Below the pieces are notes generated by a model. The model ran no database searches. It was not told the origin of the DNA and was given only the letters and a program-made list of their open reading frames with translations. Made by a program: the position numbers and the translations under genes. A stretch of 40,240 bases of DNA from Ilumatobacter sp. (GTDB lineage: Bacteria; Actinomycetota; Acidimicrobiia; Acidimicrobiales; Ilumatobacteraceae): positions 1-40,240 of the forward strand of contig JABDKP010000169.1 of the NCBI GenBank assembly GCA_013002175.1, given 5' to 3'. Positions 8,934-40,240 of the stretch are shown here, one piece after another; position 1 is the stretch's first letter, and each line of letters opens with the position of its first letter.

Positions 8934-9710
8934 ATGGCTTACGAACTGCTGACGCTCCAACGACGCGACGACGGCGTGGCCGTCATCACGCTGGCGAACG
9001 GAAAGGTCAACCCGCTCTCGCAGGAGTTGCTCGCCGAATTGCGCGCCGTCGTCGATGAGTTGCGGGCCGATCTGCCCGGCGCGGTCGTCGTCACCGGCGG
9101 CGACCGGATCTTCGCTGCGGGCGCCGACATCTCCCAGTTCGGGGGACAGGAGGAGGCCGGCCCGATCGGCGCGATGTTCCACGAGACGATCGACTCCCTC
9201 GCGTCGCTGCCGCGCTTCGTGATCGCGGCGGTCAGCGGCTATGCGCTCGGCGGCGGCTGCGAACTCGCCCTCGGGTGTGATTACCGCATCGCTTCCGAGC
9301 GGGCCGTGTTCGGCCAACCCGAGATCCTGCTCGGCATCATCCCGGGGGGCGGCGGCACGCAGCGCCTCGCCCGCACCGTCGGGGCCAGCCGGGCGAAGGA
9401 GATGTGCATCACCGGCCGCCAGGTGAAGGCGGACGAAGCGTTCCGCATCGGGCTCGCCGACGAGGTCGTCGCACCGGACGAGTTGCACGACCGTGCGATC
9501 GCGCTGGGCGCAGAAGTCGCGAAGGGTGCGCTCACCGCGCAGGCGATCTGCAAGTGGGTGATCGACGCCGGGCTGTCGACGTCGCTCGCCGACGGTCTGG
9601 CCGGCGAACGCGGGGGTTTCGTCGAGGTCTTCGGCACCGAGGATTCCCAGATCGGTGTGCAGAGCTTCCTCGAGCACGGCCCCGGAAAGGCCGCGTTCAC
9701 CGGCCGCTGA
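8934..9710 (+). CDS. enoyl-CoA hydratase/isomerase family protein
   Basis: This 258-residue crotonase-fold protein most likely hydrates trans-2-enoyl-CoA in fatty-acid or branched-chain acyl-CoA breakdown. The oxyanion-hole segments AAGADISQF (about 61-69) and ALGGGCELALGCDYRIAS are present, and both catalytic glutamates are conserved: Glu110 (GGGCEL) and Glu130 (GQPEILLGIIPGGGGTQR), spaced 20 apart as in the mitochondrial enzyme. An upstream in-frame GTG at 8901 is possible, but the ATG at 8934 fits the family start, with CAGAAT six bases upstream as a weak -10. Substrate length is not predictable. The stop codon runs straight into a perfect palindrome. Confidence 0.92.
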   Translation: MAYELLTLQRRDDGVAVITLANGKVNPLSQELLAELRAVVDELRADLPGAVVVTGGDRIFAAGADISQFGGQEEAGPIGAMFHETIDSLASLPRFVIAAVSGYALGGGCELALGCDYRIASERAVFGQPEILLGIIPGGGGTQRLARTVGASRAKEMCITGRQVKADEAFRIGLADEVVAPDELHDRAIALGAEVAKGALTAQAICKWVIDAGLSTSLADGLAGERGGFVEVFGTEDSQIGVQSFLEHGPGKAAFTGR

Positions 9711-9741
9711 CGTCAAAGTTGTGCCTGGCACAACTTTGACG
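9711..9741. repeat. 31-bp perfect palindrome, copy 1 (REP-like)
   Basis: CGTCAAAGTTGTGCC, a central T, and the exact reverse complement. The 34 bases separating the convergent hydratase and MFS genes are nearly all this palindrome. The same sequence occurs at 39121-39151 and 39993-40021, flanking a RAYT transposase gene, so it is interpreted as a mobilised REP-type element. It could also terminate transcription from both sides. Confidence 0.85.
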
Positions 9742-9744
9742 TTG

Positions 9745-33871: not shown

Positions 33872-36427
33872 TCAGTTGTCGACGAGCGCCGCGTCGAGGG
33901 CCTCGGCGTCGCGTTCGACCAGTGCTGCGTTGATCCGGAGCCGTTCGAGAATCTGATCGAGCGTCTTCGCTGCCTGTTCGATCGGATGCTCGGCGAAGAA
34001 CGACGTCACGTCGGCGACGAGCTCGGGGGTCGTCAGCAGTTTCACCGAGTCGACCATTCGGACGATCGTGTTGCGCGGGAACGAATCGGTCGCCTCCGTC
34101 CAGTGCTGGCGGAGGAAGGTCCACGCCGCCGGGCCGTGGCGGCGATTGGCGATCGCGGAGCGGAGTAGGAACGGGGCGTTCTGAGTCTTCACCGAATCGC
34201 TCATGGCGAACTCGCACGTCCGCAGGATCAGTTCCTCGTCGTCGAACTCGGCGAGGGCGAACAGGTGCCGCAGTTGATCCTGGGGCGTCGTCGCGTCCAG
34301 AAATCCCTGTTGCATCCGCTCGTACTCGTCGAGGCTGCCGTGCGCAGCGACGACCGACGTCGCCGCAGCGGTCAGTTCCGGGTCGACGCTGGTGGGGTCG
34401 CCCGAGGCCGCGTCGAACAGGTCGCGGCACCGCTCGACGGTCGCCTCGTCGTTGCCGAGCACGCCGAGCGTCGCGGTCAGCAGCCCACGAAGCTTGCCGT
34501 CGAGGTCGCTTTCGTCATCGGACGGCTCGCCCACGGCGTCGAGGGCCGGTGCCACGAGGGCGCGCACGCGTGCCTCGAATGCGGGGCGAGCACCGTCGCC
34601 GACGAGCCGGTTGAGCCCGCGCAGCGCGAGCACGATCGACTGCCAGACCGCGTGCTCGTGCTCGGCGGCGAAGCCGTCGAGCAGGTCGAGCAGTTCGGGG
34701 GCCGAGAGCCGTCCCGCCACGGTCGCCGCCCACGCGTCGTCCACGATGCTGTACCGCTCGAGCGTGCTCATGGAAGCCAGCGCGTCGCCGTCGAGACGGG
34801 CACGCAGCGTGTCGTCGTATGCGACCCTGAAGAATCCGTGGCCGCCCGCGTTCACCACGACCGGCACCTCCGGGTCGTCGAGCGTGACGTCGAGATGTTC
34901 GGCGTCCAGCAGCACGACCAACTCCTGGTCGCCGGCGCGGATGTGGATCGGAACGACCCACGTCTGGTCCTGGGGAGCGTCAGCGGCCGCAGCATCCAGC
35001 AGGAAGCGTCGCTGCGAGAGGTGCAGTGTCGCGCCGTCGAGCGATGCCGAGATCAGCGGGAAGCCCGGCTGCCAGATCCACGAGTCCATGATCCGGCGGA
35101 CGGGTTCGCCCGACGTCGTCTCGATCGCGTCCCACAGGTCGTTCGTCTCGGTGTTCTTGTAGGCATGCACCCGGAGGTAGTGGCTGACCCCCTCGCGGAA
35201 GGCGGCGGGCCCGAGGTACTGCTCCGACATCCGCAGCAGGGCGCCACCCTTCTGGTAGGTGAGTACGTCGAACATGCCCTCACAGTCGGCGGGCGAGCGC
35301 ACCTCGAACTCGACCGAACGGGTGCTGTCGAGGGCGTCGATGTCGAATGCGGCGCTGCGCTCCAGGCCGAAGCTCGTCCACCGCTCCCAATCGGGCCGGT
35401 ACGCATCGCATGCCGCGATCTCCATGAACGTCGCGAAGGCCTCGTTCAGCCAGATCCCGTTCCACCAGCGCATCGTGACGAGATCGCCGAACCACATGTG
35501 GGCGAGTTCATGGGCGACGACATCGGCGACCAGCTGCTGCTCGTTCTGGGTGCTGGTGGCCGGGTCGATGAGCAACAGGCTCTCGCGGAACGTGATGCAG
35601 CCGAGATTCTCCATCGCGCCGGCGGCGAAGTCGGGGAGGCCCGCGAGGTCGACCTTGTTGCCCGGGTAGGCGATGCCGTAGTACTCCTCGAACCAGGCCA
35701 GGCAGAACGATCCCACGTCGAGCCCGAAGGCGGTCAGGTCGTGCTTGCCCGGCACGTGGACGACGCGCATCGGCGTGCCGTCCACGTCGATCGGTGCGGT
35801 GGCTTCGAGGTGGCCGACGATGAAGGCCACCAGATAGCTGCTCATCACCATCGTGTCCGCGAACCTGATCACCGTGCGCCCGTCCGCCGAGGTCCGCTCG
35901 ATCTCCGGGCCGTTCGAGATCGCGGTCAGCCCGTCGGCGATGTCGAGCGTGATGCCGAACACCGCCTTGAACTCGGGTTCGTCCCAGCACGGGAACGCAC
36001 GGCGGCAATCGGTGGCCTGCATCTGCGTGGTCGCGATGACCTGCTCGTTGCCGTCGGCGTCGGTGTACGTACTGCGATAGAAGCCGCGCAGCTTGTCGTT
36101 GATGATGCCGGCGAAGCCGATCACGAGCTTTGCGTGGCCTGCCGGGATCGGAGTCGCCGGCCGGACGATCAGACGCTCGGTCTCCTCGTCGAGCTCCCAC
36201 GTCGCGTCGACGCCGTCGACCGAGCAGTGCGAGATCGTGAGTTCGGCCGCGTTGAGGACCAGCACATCGGTGGCGACGCCGGTGTCGACCTGGATCGCCA
36301 CGGTGCCGGTGAACGCCGAGTCGGTGATCGACGGGACGAGTCGGACGTCGTATCGGGACGGGCGCACCGTGGTGGGGAGGCGATACGGGTCCAGGGTGTC
36401 CTGCAGGTCGTGCGCGCTGGCTGCCAT
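33872..36427 (-). CDS. pepN: M1-family aminopeptidase N
   Basis: This 851-residue zinc aminopeptidase removes N-terminal residues from peptides. The exopeptidase motif AGAMEN and the zinc site HELAHMWFGD (His306, Glu307, His310) plus WLNEAFA (Glu329) are intact, with the 18-residue spacing of M1 enzymes. The N-terminal saddle domain (RPSRYDVRLVPSITDSAFTGTVAIQVD) and the C-terminal ERAP1_C-like helical domain (from about residue 530) are complete. TACCAT (36435-36440 on minus) lies seven bases before the ATG at 36427. An upstream in-frame ATG at 36526 would run into the divergent pfkB gene and is rejected. Confidence 0.95.
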   Translation of the reverse strand: MAASAHDLQDTLDPYRLPTTVRPSRYDVRLVPSITDSAFTGTVAIQVDTGVATDVLVLNAAELTISHCSVDGVDATWELDEETERLIVRPATPIPAGHAKLVIGFAGIINDKLRGFYRSTYTDADGNEQVIATTQMQATDCRRAFPCWDEPEFKAVFGITLDIADGLTAISNGPEIERTSADGRTVIRFADTMVMSSYLVAFIVGHLEATAPIDVDGTPMRVVHVPGKHDLTAFGLDVGSFCLAWFEEYYGIAYPGNKVDLAGLPDFAAGAMENLGCITFRESLLLIDPATSTQNEQQLVADVVAHELAHMWFGDLVTMRWWNGIWLNEAFATFMEIAACDAYRPDWERWTSFGLERSAAFDIDALDSTRSVEFEVRSPADCEGMFDVLTYQKGGALLRMSEQYLGPAAFREGVSHYLRVHAYKNTETNDLWDAIETTSGEPVRRIMDSWIWQPGFPLISASLDGATLHLSQRRFLLDAAAADAPQDQTWVVPIHIRAGDQELVVLLDAEHLDVTLDDPEVPVVVNAGGHGFFRVAYDDTLRARLDGDALASMSTLERYSIVDDAWAATVAGRLSAPELLDLLDGFAAEHEHAVWQSIVLALRGLNRLVGDGARPAFEARVRALVAPALDAVGEPSDDESDLDGKLRGLLTATLGVLGNDEATVERCRDLFDAASGDPTSVDPELTAAATSVVAAHGSLDEYERMQQGFLDATTPQDQLRHLFALAEFDDEELILRTCEFAMSDSVKTQNAPFLLRSAIANRRHGPAAWTFLRQHWTEATDSFPRNTIVRMVDSVKLLTTPELVADVTSFFAEHPIEQAAKTLDQILERLRINAALVERDAEALDAALVDN

Positions 36428-36434
36428 CGGGCGG

Positions 36435-36453
36435 ATGGTACCGGCGGTATCGT
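36435..36453. promoter_or_regulatory. divergent leaderless promoters of pepN and pfkB-family gene
   Basis: TACCAT on the minus strand (36440-36435) serves pepN, seven bases before its ATG. TATCGT on the plus strand (36448-36453) serves the PfkB gene, eight bases before its GTG. Both genes start within 35 bases of each other. Confidence 0.55.
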
Positions 36454-36461
36454 TGCCGGTC

Positions 36462-37475
36462 GTGTCAGACTCGACCGTCACCAGCTCGACCGCGCCGCCC
36501 ACGATCGACGTCGTCGGCATCGGCAATGCGCTCGTCGACGTGATCGCTCACGCCACCGACGACTTCCTCGACGGAAACCAGCTGGTCAAAGGAGCGATGA
36601 CGCTCATCGAGACCGAGCGCGCCGTCGAGCTGTACGCCGCGCTAGACGGGGCGGTGGAGATGAGCGGCGGCTCGGCCGCCAACACGATGTGCGGCCTCGC
36701 CAGCCTCGGCGGGAAGGCGGTCTACATCGGCAAGGTCAACGACGACGACCTCGGACGCGTCTTCGGCCACGACCTGAAGGCGGTCGGGGTCCCGTTCCGG
36801 GGCGGCGGTACCGACCACGGCACCCCGACCGGGAGGTGCGTGATCGTCGTGACGCCCGACGCCGAACGGACGATGAACACGTATCTCGGTGTGTCGAGCT
36901 TCCTCAACGTCGACGACATCGACGTCGACGCAGTGGCCGCAGCGAAGGTCCTGTACATGGAGGGGTATCTGTACGACCGCGACGACGCCAAGGAAGCGTT
37001 CCGTCATGCCGCCGACGTCGCCCACCGCCATGGCCGGACCGTGTCGCTCACGCTCTCGGATTCGTTCTGTGTCGACCGGCATCGACGCGACTTCCGGTCG
37101 CTCGTGCGCGACCGTGTCGACCTGCTGTTCGGCAACGCGGACGAGCTCCGGGCCCTGTACGAGGTCGACCAGTTGGACGCCGCGGTCGACCGCGTGCGCA
37201 GCGAGTGCGCCCTCGCCGCGATCACCTGCGGGGCGGATGGCTGCGTGATCGTGACACAGGACGAGGTCATCGAGGTCGACGCCGTCCCGGTCGAGCGGGT
37301 GATCGACACCACCGGTGCGGGCGATTTGTTCGCCGCCGGCTTCCTGTACGGCTTGACCGCCGATCGGCCGCTCGCCGAGTGCGGACGGCTCGGCTCGATT
37401 GCAGCTGCCGAGGTGATCGGCCACGTCGGTCCTCGTCCACTCGTCGAGTTGCGTACGCTCGTTGCGGATGGCTGA
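36462..37475 (+). CDS. PfkB-family kinase (adenosine-kinase-like)
   Basis: This 337-residue ribokinase-fold enzyme phosphorylates a sugar or nucleoside with ATP. The N-terminal IDVVGIGNALVDVIAHATDDFLDGN and the lid MSGGSAANTMCGLASLGGKAVYIGKVNDDDLG match adenosine-kinase-like PfkB members. The C-terminal PfkB signature VIDTTGAGDLFAAGFLYGL holds the catalytic Asp. The start is GTG with TATCGT eight bases upstream. It overlaps the mutase gene by 8 bases (ATGGCTGA), so the two are translated together. Confidence 0.9.
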   Translation: MSDSTVTSSTAPPTIDVVGIGNALVDVIAHATDDFLDGNQLVKGAMTLIETERAVELYAALDGAVEMSGGSAANTMCGLASLGGKAVYIGKVNDDDLGRVFGHDLKAVGVPFRGGGTDHGTPTGRCVIVVTPDAERTMNTYLGVSSFLNVDDIDVDAVAAAKVLYMEGYLYDRDDAKEAFRHAADVAHRHGRTVSLTLSDSFCVDRHRRDFRSLVRDRVDLLFGNADELRALYEVDQLDAAVDRVRSECALAAITCGADGCVIVTQDEVIEVDAVPVERVIDTTGAGDLFAAGFLYGLTADRPLAECGRLGSIAAAEVIGHVGPRPLVELRTLVADG

Positions 37476-39117
37476 CATACGGGACGATCACTCCGAGTTG
37501 CTCACGACGGCGCAAGCGTGGCTCGGGGCTGAACCGGATGACGACATGCGCGCGGAGCTGGCGACGCTGGTCGACGGCGCGATGTCGGGCAACGACGACG
37601 CGGCCGACGACCTCGCCGCACGGTTCGCCGGTCGCCTGCAGTTCGGAACTGCCGGCCTGCGCGCCGCGGTCGCAGCGGGACCGATGCGGATGAACCGTCT
37701 CGTCGTTCGGCAGGCCGCAGCCGGCGTCGGACGATGGCTGCTCGACACGGTCGACGACGCCGCGACGCGCGGTGTGGTGATCGCCCACGACGCGCGTCGC
37801 AAGAGCGACCTGTTCGCACTGGACACCGCTCGCGTGCTGGCGGCGATGGGCATCAAGGCGATGCTCCACCCCGGCGTGCAGCCGACGCCGGTGCTCGCCT
37901 GGTCGATCTCCGGGTTGGGGGCCGCGGCCGGCGTGGTGGTCACGGCTTCGCACAACCCGCCTGCCGACAACGGGTACAAGGTGTTCCTCGACACCGGTTC
38001 GCAGATCGTCAGCCCGGTCGACACCGACATCTCCGAGCGGATCGGCCGGTTCGACCCGTTGTCCGTGCCGCTGGCAGCCGAAGACGATCATCTGATTGCC
38101 TGGCTCGACGACTCCTGGTCCGAGGCGTACGTCGCCGCGGCACCGCTCGTCCGGCTGCGGCCCGAGGTCAGCGGCGTGCCGGTGGCGTACACGGCGATGC
38201 ATGGCGTCGGCGGCGACACACTGGTGCAGGCATTCATCGCGTCCGGATTCGAGGCGCCGACCGTCGTCGCCGCCCAGCACGAGCCCGACGGCACGTTCCC
38301 GACGGTGGCGTTCCCGAATCCGGAGGAGCCCGGGGCGATGGACCTCCTGCTCGAAACCGCGGCCGAGTGCGACGCGGCCGTCGCCTTGGCCAACGATCCC
38401 GATGCCGATCGGCTGGGCGCGGCGATTCCTACCCCGGAGGGCGGCTGGCGCCGCCTGTCCGGTGACGAGATCGGGTGGTTGATGGCCGATCACATCCTGT
38501 CGAACACGTCCGGCGACGACCGCCTCGTCGTGACGACGCTCGTGTCGTCGTCGCTGCTGTCCAAGATGGCCGACGCCCATGGCGTCCACAGCGAGGAGAC
38601 GTTCACCGGCTTCAAGTGGATCGGCAAGATTGCAACCGACCGGGCAACCGAGGGTCAGCGGTTCGTGTTCGGCTACGAGCAGGCGCTCGGCTATCTGGTC
38701 ACCGACCGGCCGCTGGACAAGGACGGGATCACCGCCGCGGTGCTGATGGCCGAGGTCGCCGCCGTGGCCGCGGCCGAAGGCGTGACGCTGCAAGACCGCC
38801 TCGACGCAATCGCGGCACGGTTCGGGCGGTACACCACGGGAGAACTGTCGGTGCGGATCCCGCCGTCGGTCGGCGCCGAGTGGGTCGCCGCGATCGAGGC
38901 GTCACCTCCCGCCGACATCGGCGGCCGGCCGGTCGAGTCCGTGTCGTCCTACCCGGAGGCGAACCTCGTCCGGCTGGTGCTCGACGGTGGCGTGCGACTG
39001 CAGGTCCGTCCCAGCGGCACCGAGCCGAAGGTGAAGTTGTACGGCGAGGCGGTCGACCTCGACGCCTCCGAACTCGACCGCCTCCTCCACGCCCTCGCCG
39101 ACTCACGCCAGTCGTAG
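37468..39117 (+). CDS. alpha-D-phosphohexomutase (PGM2-like phosphoglucomutase)
   Basis: This 549-residue phosphosugar mutase interconverts hexose-1- and 6-phosphates. The phosphoserine loop TASHNPP has Ser161, with FGTAGLRA before it. The metal loop is NDPDADRLG near residue 300. GFKWIGK and FGYEQALGYLV form the sugar-binding region, and the C-terminal phosphate loop is RPSGTEPKVKLY. These are typical of the PgcA/PGM2 group (phosphoglucomutase or phosphopentomutase). The start at 37468 overlaps the PfkB gene. Its last 15 bases overlap the 3' end of the minus-strand RAYT gene. Confidence 0.92.
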   Translation: MADIRDDHSELLTTAQAWLGAEPDDDMRAELATLVDGAMSGNDDAADDLAARFAGRLQFGTAGLRAAVAAGPMRMNRLVVRQAAAGVGRWLLDTVDDAATRGVVIAHDARRKSDLFALDTARVLAAMGIKAMLHPGVQPTPVLAWSISGLGAAAGVVVTASHNPPADNGYKVFLDTGSQIVSPVDTDISERIGRFDPLSVPLAAEDDHLIAWLDDSWSEAYVAAAPLVRLRPEVSGVPVAYTAMHGVGGDTLVQAFIASGFEAPTVVAAQHEPDGTFPTVAFPNPEEPGAMDLLLETAAECDAAVALANDPDADRLGAAIPTPEGGWRRLSGDEIGWLMADHILSNTSGDDRLVVTTLVSSSLLSKMADAHGVHSEETFTGFKWIGKIATDRATEGQRFVFGYEQALGYLVTDRPLDKDGITAAVLMAEVAAVAAAEGVTLQDRLDAIAARFGRYTTGELSVRIPPSVGAEWVAAIEASPPADIGGRPVESVSSYPEANLVRLVLDGGVRLQVRPSGTEPKVKLYGEAVDLDASELDRLLHALADSRQS

Positions 39118-39963
39118 TTGCGTCAAAGTTGTGCCAGGCACAACTTTGACGTCGCCGGCGAGCGAGAGGACGCGATCCACGAGTCGAGACAGCCACGCTT
39201 CGTCGGCGCCTCGTCGGCGTGCCCGCCGAAGTGCCCGTTCCAGAGCGGACTGGCTCGAGAACTTCAACGTGAGCGCCAATCGCTGCTGGTCGTCGACGTC
39301 CGCCAGCCGATCCAGAACGAGCAGGAGCAGCGTGCGCCGCACCCCCGGTCCGACGTCGTCACGACACTCGTCGGCGACGAGGTCGACGATTGCCGGCAGC
39401 GTGTCGGCACCCACGGGCCTGAGGGTGGCATTGTCGCTCGCCACGAAGGAGTGAAACGCCGACCGATCCTGTCCGAAGATGGCGAGCACGGGGTCCGTCT
39501 CCAGCCAAGACGGCGTTCGACGGTGCCCGAGGTATGCCCGGTGGCTCGACCAGCGGTAGTCGTCGATGGTGCGGACGCCGGGGAGGTCGAGGGCATTGCG
39601 ATGCACGTATCGGACGGTGTTCAGCAACTGGTTGTCGTCGGTGATCGGGATCGACCGGAATCGACCTCGAAACAGCGGGCCGTCCCGTCCGCTTCGATCG
39701 TTGGCGTGACGCGTGAACACCGAGCCGATGTGATGCATGAAATCCGAGAGTCCGCCGTCCGGGCAGTGCAGCACCAGGTGGTAGTGGTTGTTCATCAGGC
39801 AGTAGGCCGTGGCCATCACTCCGAACCGGTCATGTCCGACGCCGAGTAGACGTCCGAACTCGACACGGTCTCGGTCATCGAAGAACGTCGTCTGTCTGGC
39901 GACGCCGCGATTCATCACGTGGAACCGCCCGCCGGGCACATCGGGACGTAATGATCTCCCCAT
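39103..39963 (-). CDS. REP-associated tyrosine transposase (RAYT, Y1_Tnp)
   Basis: This 286-residue protein has a Y1/HUH transposase domain (about residues 1-150). The start GRFHVMNRGVARQTTFFDD is typical of RAYT proteins. The HUH metal site is AYCLMNNHYHLVLH with His60 and His62. The nucleophile is Tyr119 in RYVHRNAL, with YRWSSHRAYLG after it. Residues 150-265 form a helical C-terminal domain. RAYTs process single-stranded REP palindromes. The gene is bracketed by palindromes at 39121-39151 and 39993-40021. Its last 15 codons are read through the first palindrome (VKVVPGTTLTQ...), and it overlaps the mutase gene by 15 bases, so the original stop may have lain before the repeat. Confidence 0.88.
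   Translation of the reverse strand: MGRSLRPDVPGGRFHVMNRGVARQTTFFDDRDRVEFGRLLGVGHDRFGVMATAYCLMNNHYHLVLHCPDGGLSDFMHHIGSVFTRHANDRSGRDGPLFRGRFRSIPITDDNQLLNTVRYVHRNALDLPGVRTIDDYRWSSHRAYLGHRRTPSWLETDPVLAIFGQDRSAFHSFVASDNATLRPVGADTLPAIVDLVADECRDDVGPGVRRTLLLLVLDRLADVDDQQRLALTLKFSSQSALERALRRARRRGADEAWLSRLVDRVLSLAGDVKVVPGTTLTQLRLA
39121..39151. repeat. 31-bp perfect palindrome, copy 2 (inside RAYT 3' end)
   Basis: CGTCAAAGTTGTGCC, a central A, and the reverse complement. It equals copy 1 read on the minus strand. It starts three bases after the mutase stop, and the RAYT reading frame passes through it. Confidence 0.88.
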
Positions 39964-39992
39964 CTGCGGCAGTCTGCACGGTCGGTGTCACT

Positions 39993-40021
39993 GTCAAAGT
40001 TGTGCCTGGCACAACTTTGAC
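39993..40021. repeat. 29-bp perfect palindrome, copy 3 (upstream of RAYT)
   Basis: GTCAAAGTTGTGCC, a central T, and the reverse complement, 29 bases upstream of the RAYT start. The central base shows it is inverted relative to copy 2, so the pair brackets the gene. A T at 39992, where copies 1 and 2 have C, turns the arm edge into TTGACA on the RAYT strand, a perfect -35 hexamer. Confidence 0.88.
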
Positions 40022-40055
40022 GCGTGGCACGACTGCGACTCGCTTGAACGACGAG

Positions 40056-40240
<185 letters not shown>

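Follow-up and report, generated by a model that had tools for sequence, protein, structure and literature searches.

Several properties of small palindromes that accompany Y1 transposases are already in print. Repetitive extragenic palindromes (REPs) are dispersed between genes and flank, in inverted orientation, the gene of a REP-associated tyrosine transposase (RAYT), and in these systems, as in the REP doublets called REPINs, the likely substrate is a hairpin of single-stranded DNA (Nunvar 2010, PMC2817692; Bertels and Rainey 2011, PMC3116915). Perfect palindromes and co-evolution of enzyme and repeat have been reported for Group 3 REPs (Corneloup et al. 2021, PMC8266576), and syntenic orthologous RAYTs flanked by differing REP classes have been named 'orthoswitch', with a molecular mechanism on which the authors, in their account of it, can only speculate (Nunvar et al. 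2013, PMC3686654). TIRYT elements, or TIRtrons, carry a RAYT-like Y1 gene between non-GTAG terminal inverted repeats (TIRs), which form families; some TIRs are wholly or partly self-complementary and are dispersed as single, dimeric or grouped copies, and some share the motif GGGGWSAS (Di Nocera et al. 2013, PMC3733652). Here we describe a 40,240-nucleotide stretch of Ilumatobacter sp. (contig JABDKP010000169.1; hereafter the window), whose last feature is a transposase gene with a perfect palindrome at both ends. We propose that it is probably a vertically inherited TIRYT-like Y1 transposase with its cognate hairpins, the enzyme recognising the hairpin and driving its turnover.

The gene (39103..39963, minus strand) encodes 286 amino acids, with H60-Y61-H62, Y119 and N123. 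Upstream lies a palindrome of 29 bp (39993..40021; arms of 14 bases, centre T on the plus strand and A in the coding sense), and a second, of 31 bp (39121..39151; arms of 15, centre A on the plus strand and T in the coding sense), sits within the 3' end of the frame, where it is translated as DVKVVPGTTLT, approximately residues 271-281. A dispersed copy of 33 bp (9710..9742; arms of 16, centre T) fills a 34-bp gap between two convergent genes. The first-pass annotation had recognised a Y1/HUH transposase with His60, His62 and Tyr119, both flanking perfect palindromes of 29-31 bp and a third copy at 9711-9741 in a convergent gap, all of which were recovered here, the third being slightly longer. 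There is indeed one palindrome at each end of the gene, although the one at 39121-39151 belongs to the frame rather than bracketing it, and the inverted orientation that had been proposed holds for the central A/T only, as the self-complementary arms give no orientation. With the proviso that one flank overlaps the gene end, the gene is thus enclosed, as in REP/RAYT loci, by an inverted pair of palindromes of a dispersed, intergenic kind.

In the window's element the palindrome reads CGTCAAAGTTGTGCC-W-GGCACAACTTTGACG, with the core GTGCC-W-GGCAC. As single-stranded DNA it is predicted to fold into a stem of 13-14 bp closed by a three-base loop, CAG or CTG, which is the sole difference between the two orientations; the predicted stability as DNA is -13.1 to -15.3 kcal/mol (29 of the 31 bp were used for the copy at 39121-39151). 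If up to 3 mismatches are allowed, the 14-base arm matches 9 times in the window, versus 1.63 expected. Besides the transposase, two other proteins include a translated palindrome, one where a small, unrelated protein ends (VVPGTTLSQ, L064 5346) and one inside a longer protein at L056 4001 (DDQVVPGTTLSWG).

The window protein belongs to the IS200/IS605-like Y1 (HUH) enzymes, with an HUH motif and one catalytic tyrosine in a Y1 fold. It matches PF01797 at 27.1 bits (cut-off 23) and NCBIfam NF047646 (REP_Tyr_transpos) at 50.9 bits, under the equivalog cut-off of 80, and H60, H62 and Y119 are invariant in an alignment of 18 proteins that includes it. A phmmer search against PDB sequences gave no match up to E 1. 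For the AlphaFold model (mean pLDDT 87.1, C-terminal part helical), the top PDB match in Foldseek, at E 1.7e-6, was 4er8, the complex of a RAYT with a REP hairpin; ISDra2 and IS608 also matched, with E from 3e-4 upwards. Homologues are present in 19 of 119 genomes, the window's own included. That genome (G000; an assembly of 3.33 Mb in 191 contigs, 89% complete) has one intact copy of the transposase and one that is diverged and interrupted (56% identical to the window protein, 2 TGA). This interrupted, transposase-like frame is at L038 40-654 (contig C47), with GTGTCTGACAC adjoining. We ruled out an IS200/IS605 insertion sequence, as the gene is not found in several near-identical copies and has an orthologous locus in a sister species (G002).

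The palindrome is dispersed through the genome. In G000 a 25-mer, allowed up to 3 mismatches, matches at 93 sites and the 15-base core TTGTGCCTGGCACAA matches exactly at 87, and the reversed-pattern controls gave 0 in both cases. A 23-mer with at most 1 mismatch had no match in the other 118 genomes, 9 of them of the same genus, and the exact 25-mer had none in a genome-contig collection, from which the window's own genome may be left out. Loci fetched around the 87 listed sites hold 91 sites with at most 1 core mismatch. Convergent gaps account for 28 of them, codirectional gaps for 49 and divergent gaps for 3; a further 6 fall within genes, and 5 are at the edge of a contig. The gene finder used for this survey misses some starts as well as the transposase gene, which was added by hand as one of the 6 in-gene sites. 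Many copies start a few bases from a stop codon, and in these loci, which were selected for holding palindromes, divergent gaps cover 14,499 bases versus 4,650 for convergent gaps. The arms co-vary outside the core, with position 13 paired in 67 of 85 sites (shuffled maximum 57) and position 11 in 72 of 85 (shuffled maximum 67). A different family of palindromes, ACATCTGGTGCC-W-GGCACCAGATGT with its near variants, has 13 copies in 690 kb of G002 (L172-L211, for example L198 9588 and L185 8584) and 3 in the 515 kb fetched from G000 (L094 1367, L104 746 and L083 10051); its members sometimes border indels.

Within the genus, three species have each amplified a core of their own: GTGCC in G000, GTGTC in G002 and GTCTC in a third species (G006). 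In each, this core is also that of the flanks of its own transposase (L018, L019 and L021, respectively), GTGTC-W-GACAC bordering the homologue of G002 and GTCTC-W-GAGAC that of G006. A survey with the degenerate pattern TTGTSYCTGRSACAA, for which reversed controls gave 0, detected 71 sites in G002 (36 GTGTC and 1 GTGCC among the 37 listed), 55 in G006 (all listed, all GTCTC), 39 with mixed cores in G060, which represents another genus, and 19 in G045. GTGTC occurs at 3 sites in G000, versus 87 for GTGCC. G045 and G060 have the GTGCC core like G000, but with genome-specific outer arms; twice, palindromes of G060 and G000 adjoin the same gene with differing arms (L295 3001 / L072 1682 and L304 3001 / L062 1486). 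Relatives in which no homologue was detected have 0-3 core matches (at most 1 mismatch), except G045 with 23. The gene, its predicted fold and catalytic residues, the cognate palindrome of each species and its dispersal can all be read at the level of sequence.

The transposase occupies the same locus in the sister species, where window positions 35295-40240 align to L169 (80.4%). The two transposases are 67.8% identical, compared to a median of 87.6% for 34 neighbouring genes (lowest 53.6%). We then compared the G000 loci to 690 kb of G002, made up of contigs largely chosen for known palindromes or matches: 58 of the 91 sites were uncovered, 18 aligned continuously, 4 gave split alignments and 11 were aligned on one side. 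Among the 18 continuous sites, G002 has a GTGTC palindrome at 10, two of which are the transposase's own flanks, another palindrome at 1 and none at 7; the 10 of 18 may exceed the genome-wide rate, as the G002 contigs were partly picked for palindromes. Two of the split sites are shared and 2 are not. For the one-sided sites, 7 were scored as shared and 4 were not, with some calls falling on one G002 palindrome and L069:799 scored on its neighbour, though the nearest G002 copy is of the GTGCC class.

Among the shared sites, the alignment is gapless at 9719, L049 and L083 and has a gap of 1-3 bases at L056, L082 and L098; at L079 the two palindromes are shifted by about 20 bases, and L069 aligns ambiguously. 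At the place of the window's 9710-9742 copy, G002 has a GTGTC-core palindrome with centre A, and at L056 the palindrome lies within a frame of approximately 515 amino acids that neither species interrupts, with an identical reading phase through the palindrome in the two. L069:7907, one of the 10 continuous shared sites, is decayed and half-switched in G000, with one arm GTGTC and the other GGCAC, and its G002 counterpart is an intact GTGTC copy. For the 11 shared sites that are intact (9 continuous, 2 split), the two species agree in the centre base at 6 and differ by a flip at 5, and the replaced tract seems no longer than the repeat itself. Shared positions that carry the sister's core suggest that the hairpin was replaced in place.

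Neighbouring copies also show a polarity of the central base. In G000, 13 of 15 neighbouring pairs within 3 kb read A...T on the plus strand. Over five genomes (37 of the 71 G002 sites included), the 33 such pairs comprise 22 A...T, 1 T...A and 10 of the same sense, and none of 20,000 shuffles reached 22 A...T. Beyond 3 kb, G000 has 1 A...T, 7 T...A and 9 same-sense pairs, so that the A...T excess is restricted to close pairs. Read in the coding sense, the transposase gene too lies within an A...T pair, an arrangement from which the homologue L037 departs. L167 of G006 (476500-486000) holds five GTCTC palindromes in 3.4 kb, in the order A T A A T. A relation between loop orientation and replication half, noted by eye in G006, was not seen again in G045, and we make no claim of it. 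Like the different cores at shared positions, loop-base flipping and close-pair polarity are read from the genome sequences.

A few gene-sized indels end at palindrome pairs, one of them cleanly: at L072, G000 has palindrome, gene and palindrome, with cores 773 bp apart, where G002 (L158) has a single palindrome between the same two genes. Two further loci are longer in G002. At L061/L175 the additional 1.26 kb includes a transporter-like gene and is bounded by an A palindrome and a degenerate remnant, which holds a T-centred core overlapped by a one-mismatch A-centred core; at L083/L176 there is an additional gene of 1.2 kb, flanked by a degenerate A copy and a T palindrome. In both cases one boundary is not an exact repeat. 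L067 and L072:1682 both map to one G002 palindrome, giving an apparent large insert in G000 across a contig break. Gene labels here were read from translations rather than from database results, and some G000 sites lie at contig ends, so that mis-assembly at exact repeats is possible at L072/L158 and L067. The indels at L063 and L094 adjoin a palindrome on one side only, and a manual count found a palindrome of the transposase-linked family at neither side in 13 of 25 distinct indel rows. We rejected the idea that every A...T pair is a mobile gene cassette, since the genes enclosed at L080 and L103 are present in G002 without family palindromes; at L050 the gene end is also found in G002, with a diverged palindrome at its right end.

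Such indels could be simple deletions by recombination between two palindromes rather than gene transposition, a reading to which we give slightly less than an even chance: it accounts for the single palindrome of L158 opposite the palindrome-gene-palindrome of L072, and for A...T-enclosed genes that occur in G002 without intact family palindromes (L080 and L103, and L050 for its right end only), but it offers no account of the bias of close pairs (22 A...T versus 1 T...A).

Among described systems, the nearest kin is to be sought, on sequence criteria, in TIRYT/TIRtron elements rather than in canonical REP/RAYT systems. We surveyed the ends of homologues in many phyla, 71 of the 80 named loci listed having enough flank (6 are Acidimicrobiia by title). 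Inverted ends of at least 13 bases were found in 43 of the 71, compared to 81 of 1403 in a mismatched-pairing control, and 34 of these 43 contain GGGTCA, as do L024, L028, L030, L031 and L041 of the same order; ends within the order include GGGGTCAGGCCCC, GGGGTCAGACCCC, GTGTCAGACAC and GTGCCAGGCAC. Homologues of the window protein in many phyla thus carry an end motif of the GGGGTCAG type, as TIRYTs do, and the GGGTCA-bearing ends fit the GGGGWSAS described for some TIRs (PMC3733652). The central A of the 5' copy in the window matches the A of GGGGTCAG, and the element probably descends from a TIRYT type whose inverted ends often contain this motif. It probably also falls closest to TnpAY1 subclass 2.1, equivalent to RAYT group 1, near whose genes Quentin et al. 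(2018, PMC6006769) did not find REP-like sequences in their analysis. Unlike TIRYT repeats, that of the window is a complete palindrome, GTGCC-W-GGCAC, with approximately 90 copies and a species-specific core.

Comparison with REPs set further limits. Canonical REPs are excluded by the absence of a GT[AG]G foot (4 of 85 sites), and REPINs by the rarity of doublets (of the 87 sites, only 3 pairs of neighbours are within 200 bp, and 2 of these pairs are inverted); the copies are mainly single, with a one-base centre. CGTC-tagged REPs, in which CGTC is unpaired at one end, are excluded because CGTC here commonly pairs with GACG in the stem. Group 3 REPs differ in having GTAG and enzymes of another group (PMC8266576), and whereas in the orthoswitch as described the switched classes multiply and coexist (PMC3686654), here orthologous dispersed sites have switched and the old class is nearly gone. 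The REP/RAYT assignment of the first-pass annotation therefore stands for the RAYT-like enzyme and its dispersed cognate palindromes, of which the genome has 93, mostly intergenic, rather than three, but not in the canonical sense; equal counts in relatives without a detected RAYT, which would have spoken against a link, are not seen, the highest count there being the 23 of G045. Its 'live or recent' holds in the sense that copies have turned over after the two sister species separated, while 'live' is not borne out. In a literature search that had most subscription journals outside its reach, we found no description of in-place switching of dispersed copies, of kilobase-scale A...T polarity or of a RAYT-linked palindrome family in Acidimicrobiia. 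The word 'Actinobacteria' is not in the main text of PMC3733652 or PMC6006769, and PMC12306157 gives REP counts for Acidimicrobium ferrooxidans in a main text that contains neither 'RAYT' nor 'transposase'.

Turnover of the hairpins could have other causes. Host-driven concerted evolution, in which RecA-type gene conversion or template switching homogenises the repeats and the transposase merely seeded the family, is rather unlikely in our view, yet it fits a replaced tract apparently no longer than the repeat, the maintained pairing of the arms, as expected of hairpin-templated repair, and the 17 G045 copies that were read, which have one core and similar arms in a genome with no detected enzyme. 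It does not explain why the core is that of the local transposase flanks in three species, nor why the transposase gene evolves faster than most of its neighbours, and repeats of 25-30 bp are near the lower size limit for homologous recombination. Ordinary REP/REPIN-type spread, with new insertions only, decay of the old variant and shared sites produced by repeated insertion at preferred places such as stop codons and convergent gaps, would agree with the clustering of sites by stop codons, with the 28 of 91 in convergent gaps, with the sites empty in G002 and with the explanation of switches by mutation followed by multiplication (PMC3686654). We consider it quite unlikely, as 10 of 18 sites are shared, in some cases to the exact base and in one case with a common reading frame in a gene of both species, which by a rough estimate is above chance for approximately 70-90 insertions among thousands of gaps, and the old class has almost vanished from G000.

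A host function is very unlikely as the sole explanation. Selection for bidirectional terminators or mRNA 3'-end hairpins would fit a stable hairpin and the preference for convergent over divergent gaps (28 versus 3), though divergent gaps hold three times more bases; most copies, however, are without an adjoining T run as judged by eye, cores are species-specific at the same sites, 6 of 91 copies lie inside a gene, and a terminator role does not predict A...T polarity. Co-option as terminators is possible alongside a transposase-linked origin.

Several observations weigh against turnover driven by the transposase. G045 (L112-L127) has its 23 core copies, with outer arms of its own, and no homologue at E <= 0.001, whereas G027 has a homologue and one core copy only, and several other homologue loci in the order have no clear flanking palindrome. 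GGGGWSAS is not found in the repeats of the window element. Subclass 2.1 is characterised by a C-terminal helix-turn-helix (HTH; Bac_DnaA_C, HTH_23, HTH_28). A profile scan detected no HTH family in the window protein; of five homologues scanned, L024 matched Bac_DnaA_C at E 0.0072, its 16.8 bits falling short of the cut-off of 31.5, and the other four gave none. Continuous alignment to G002 covers 18 of 91 sites only, with 58 uncovered, both assemblies are fragmented and incomplete, and the 7 of 18 continuous sites that are empty in G002 imply that new insertion also occurs. Homologous gene conversion or selection could also have homogenised the copies.

On balance we favour turnover linked to the transposase, along the following lines. 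Each end of the element would have become a full palindrome in this lineage, leaving the CAG/CTG loop as the only strand asymmetry. The enzyme may bind the hairpin extruded from single-stranded DNA, cleave near its foot and transfer strands, and strand transfer would spread copies to intergenic sites. Older hairpins at sites already occupied would then be replaced by a new variant of the palindrome that arose as the enzyme diverged; binding, cleavage and the attribution of replacement to the enzyme, not to host recombination, are what we infer from the genomes. A bolder version, which we regard as unlikely, would make the transposase a genome-wide editor, in which a change of specificity rewrites resident hairpins in place, loop included, and genes between A- and T-centred copies are moved or deleted as single-strand cassettes.

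This genus offers a natural experiment on the joint change of a RAYT and its dozens of dispersed repeats: two sister species carry the enzyme in synteny, a third species has a homologue, three cores are represented, and some shared sites have already switched. The enzymes and hairpins allow a reciprocal test. If the polarised pairs and palindrome-bounded indels are enzymatic, they would represent an added route to the gain and loss of single genes in bacteria.

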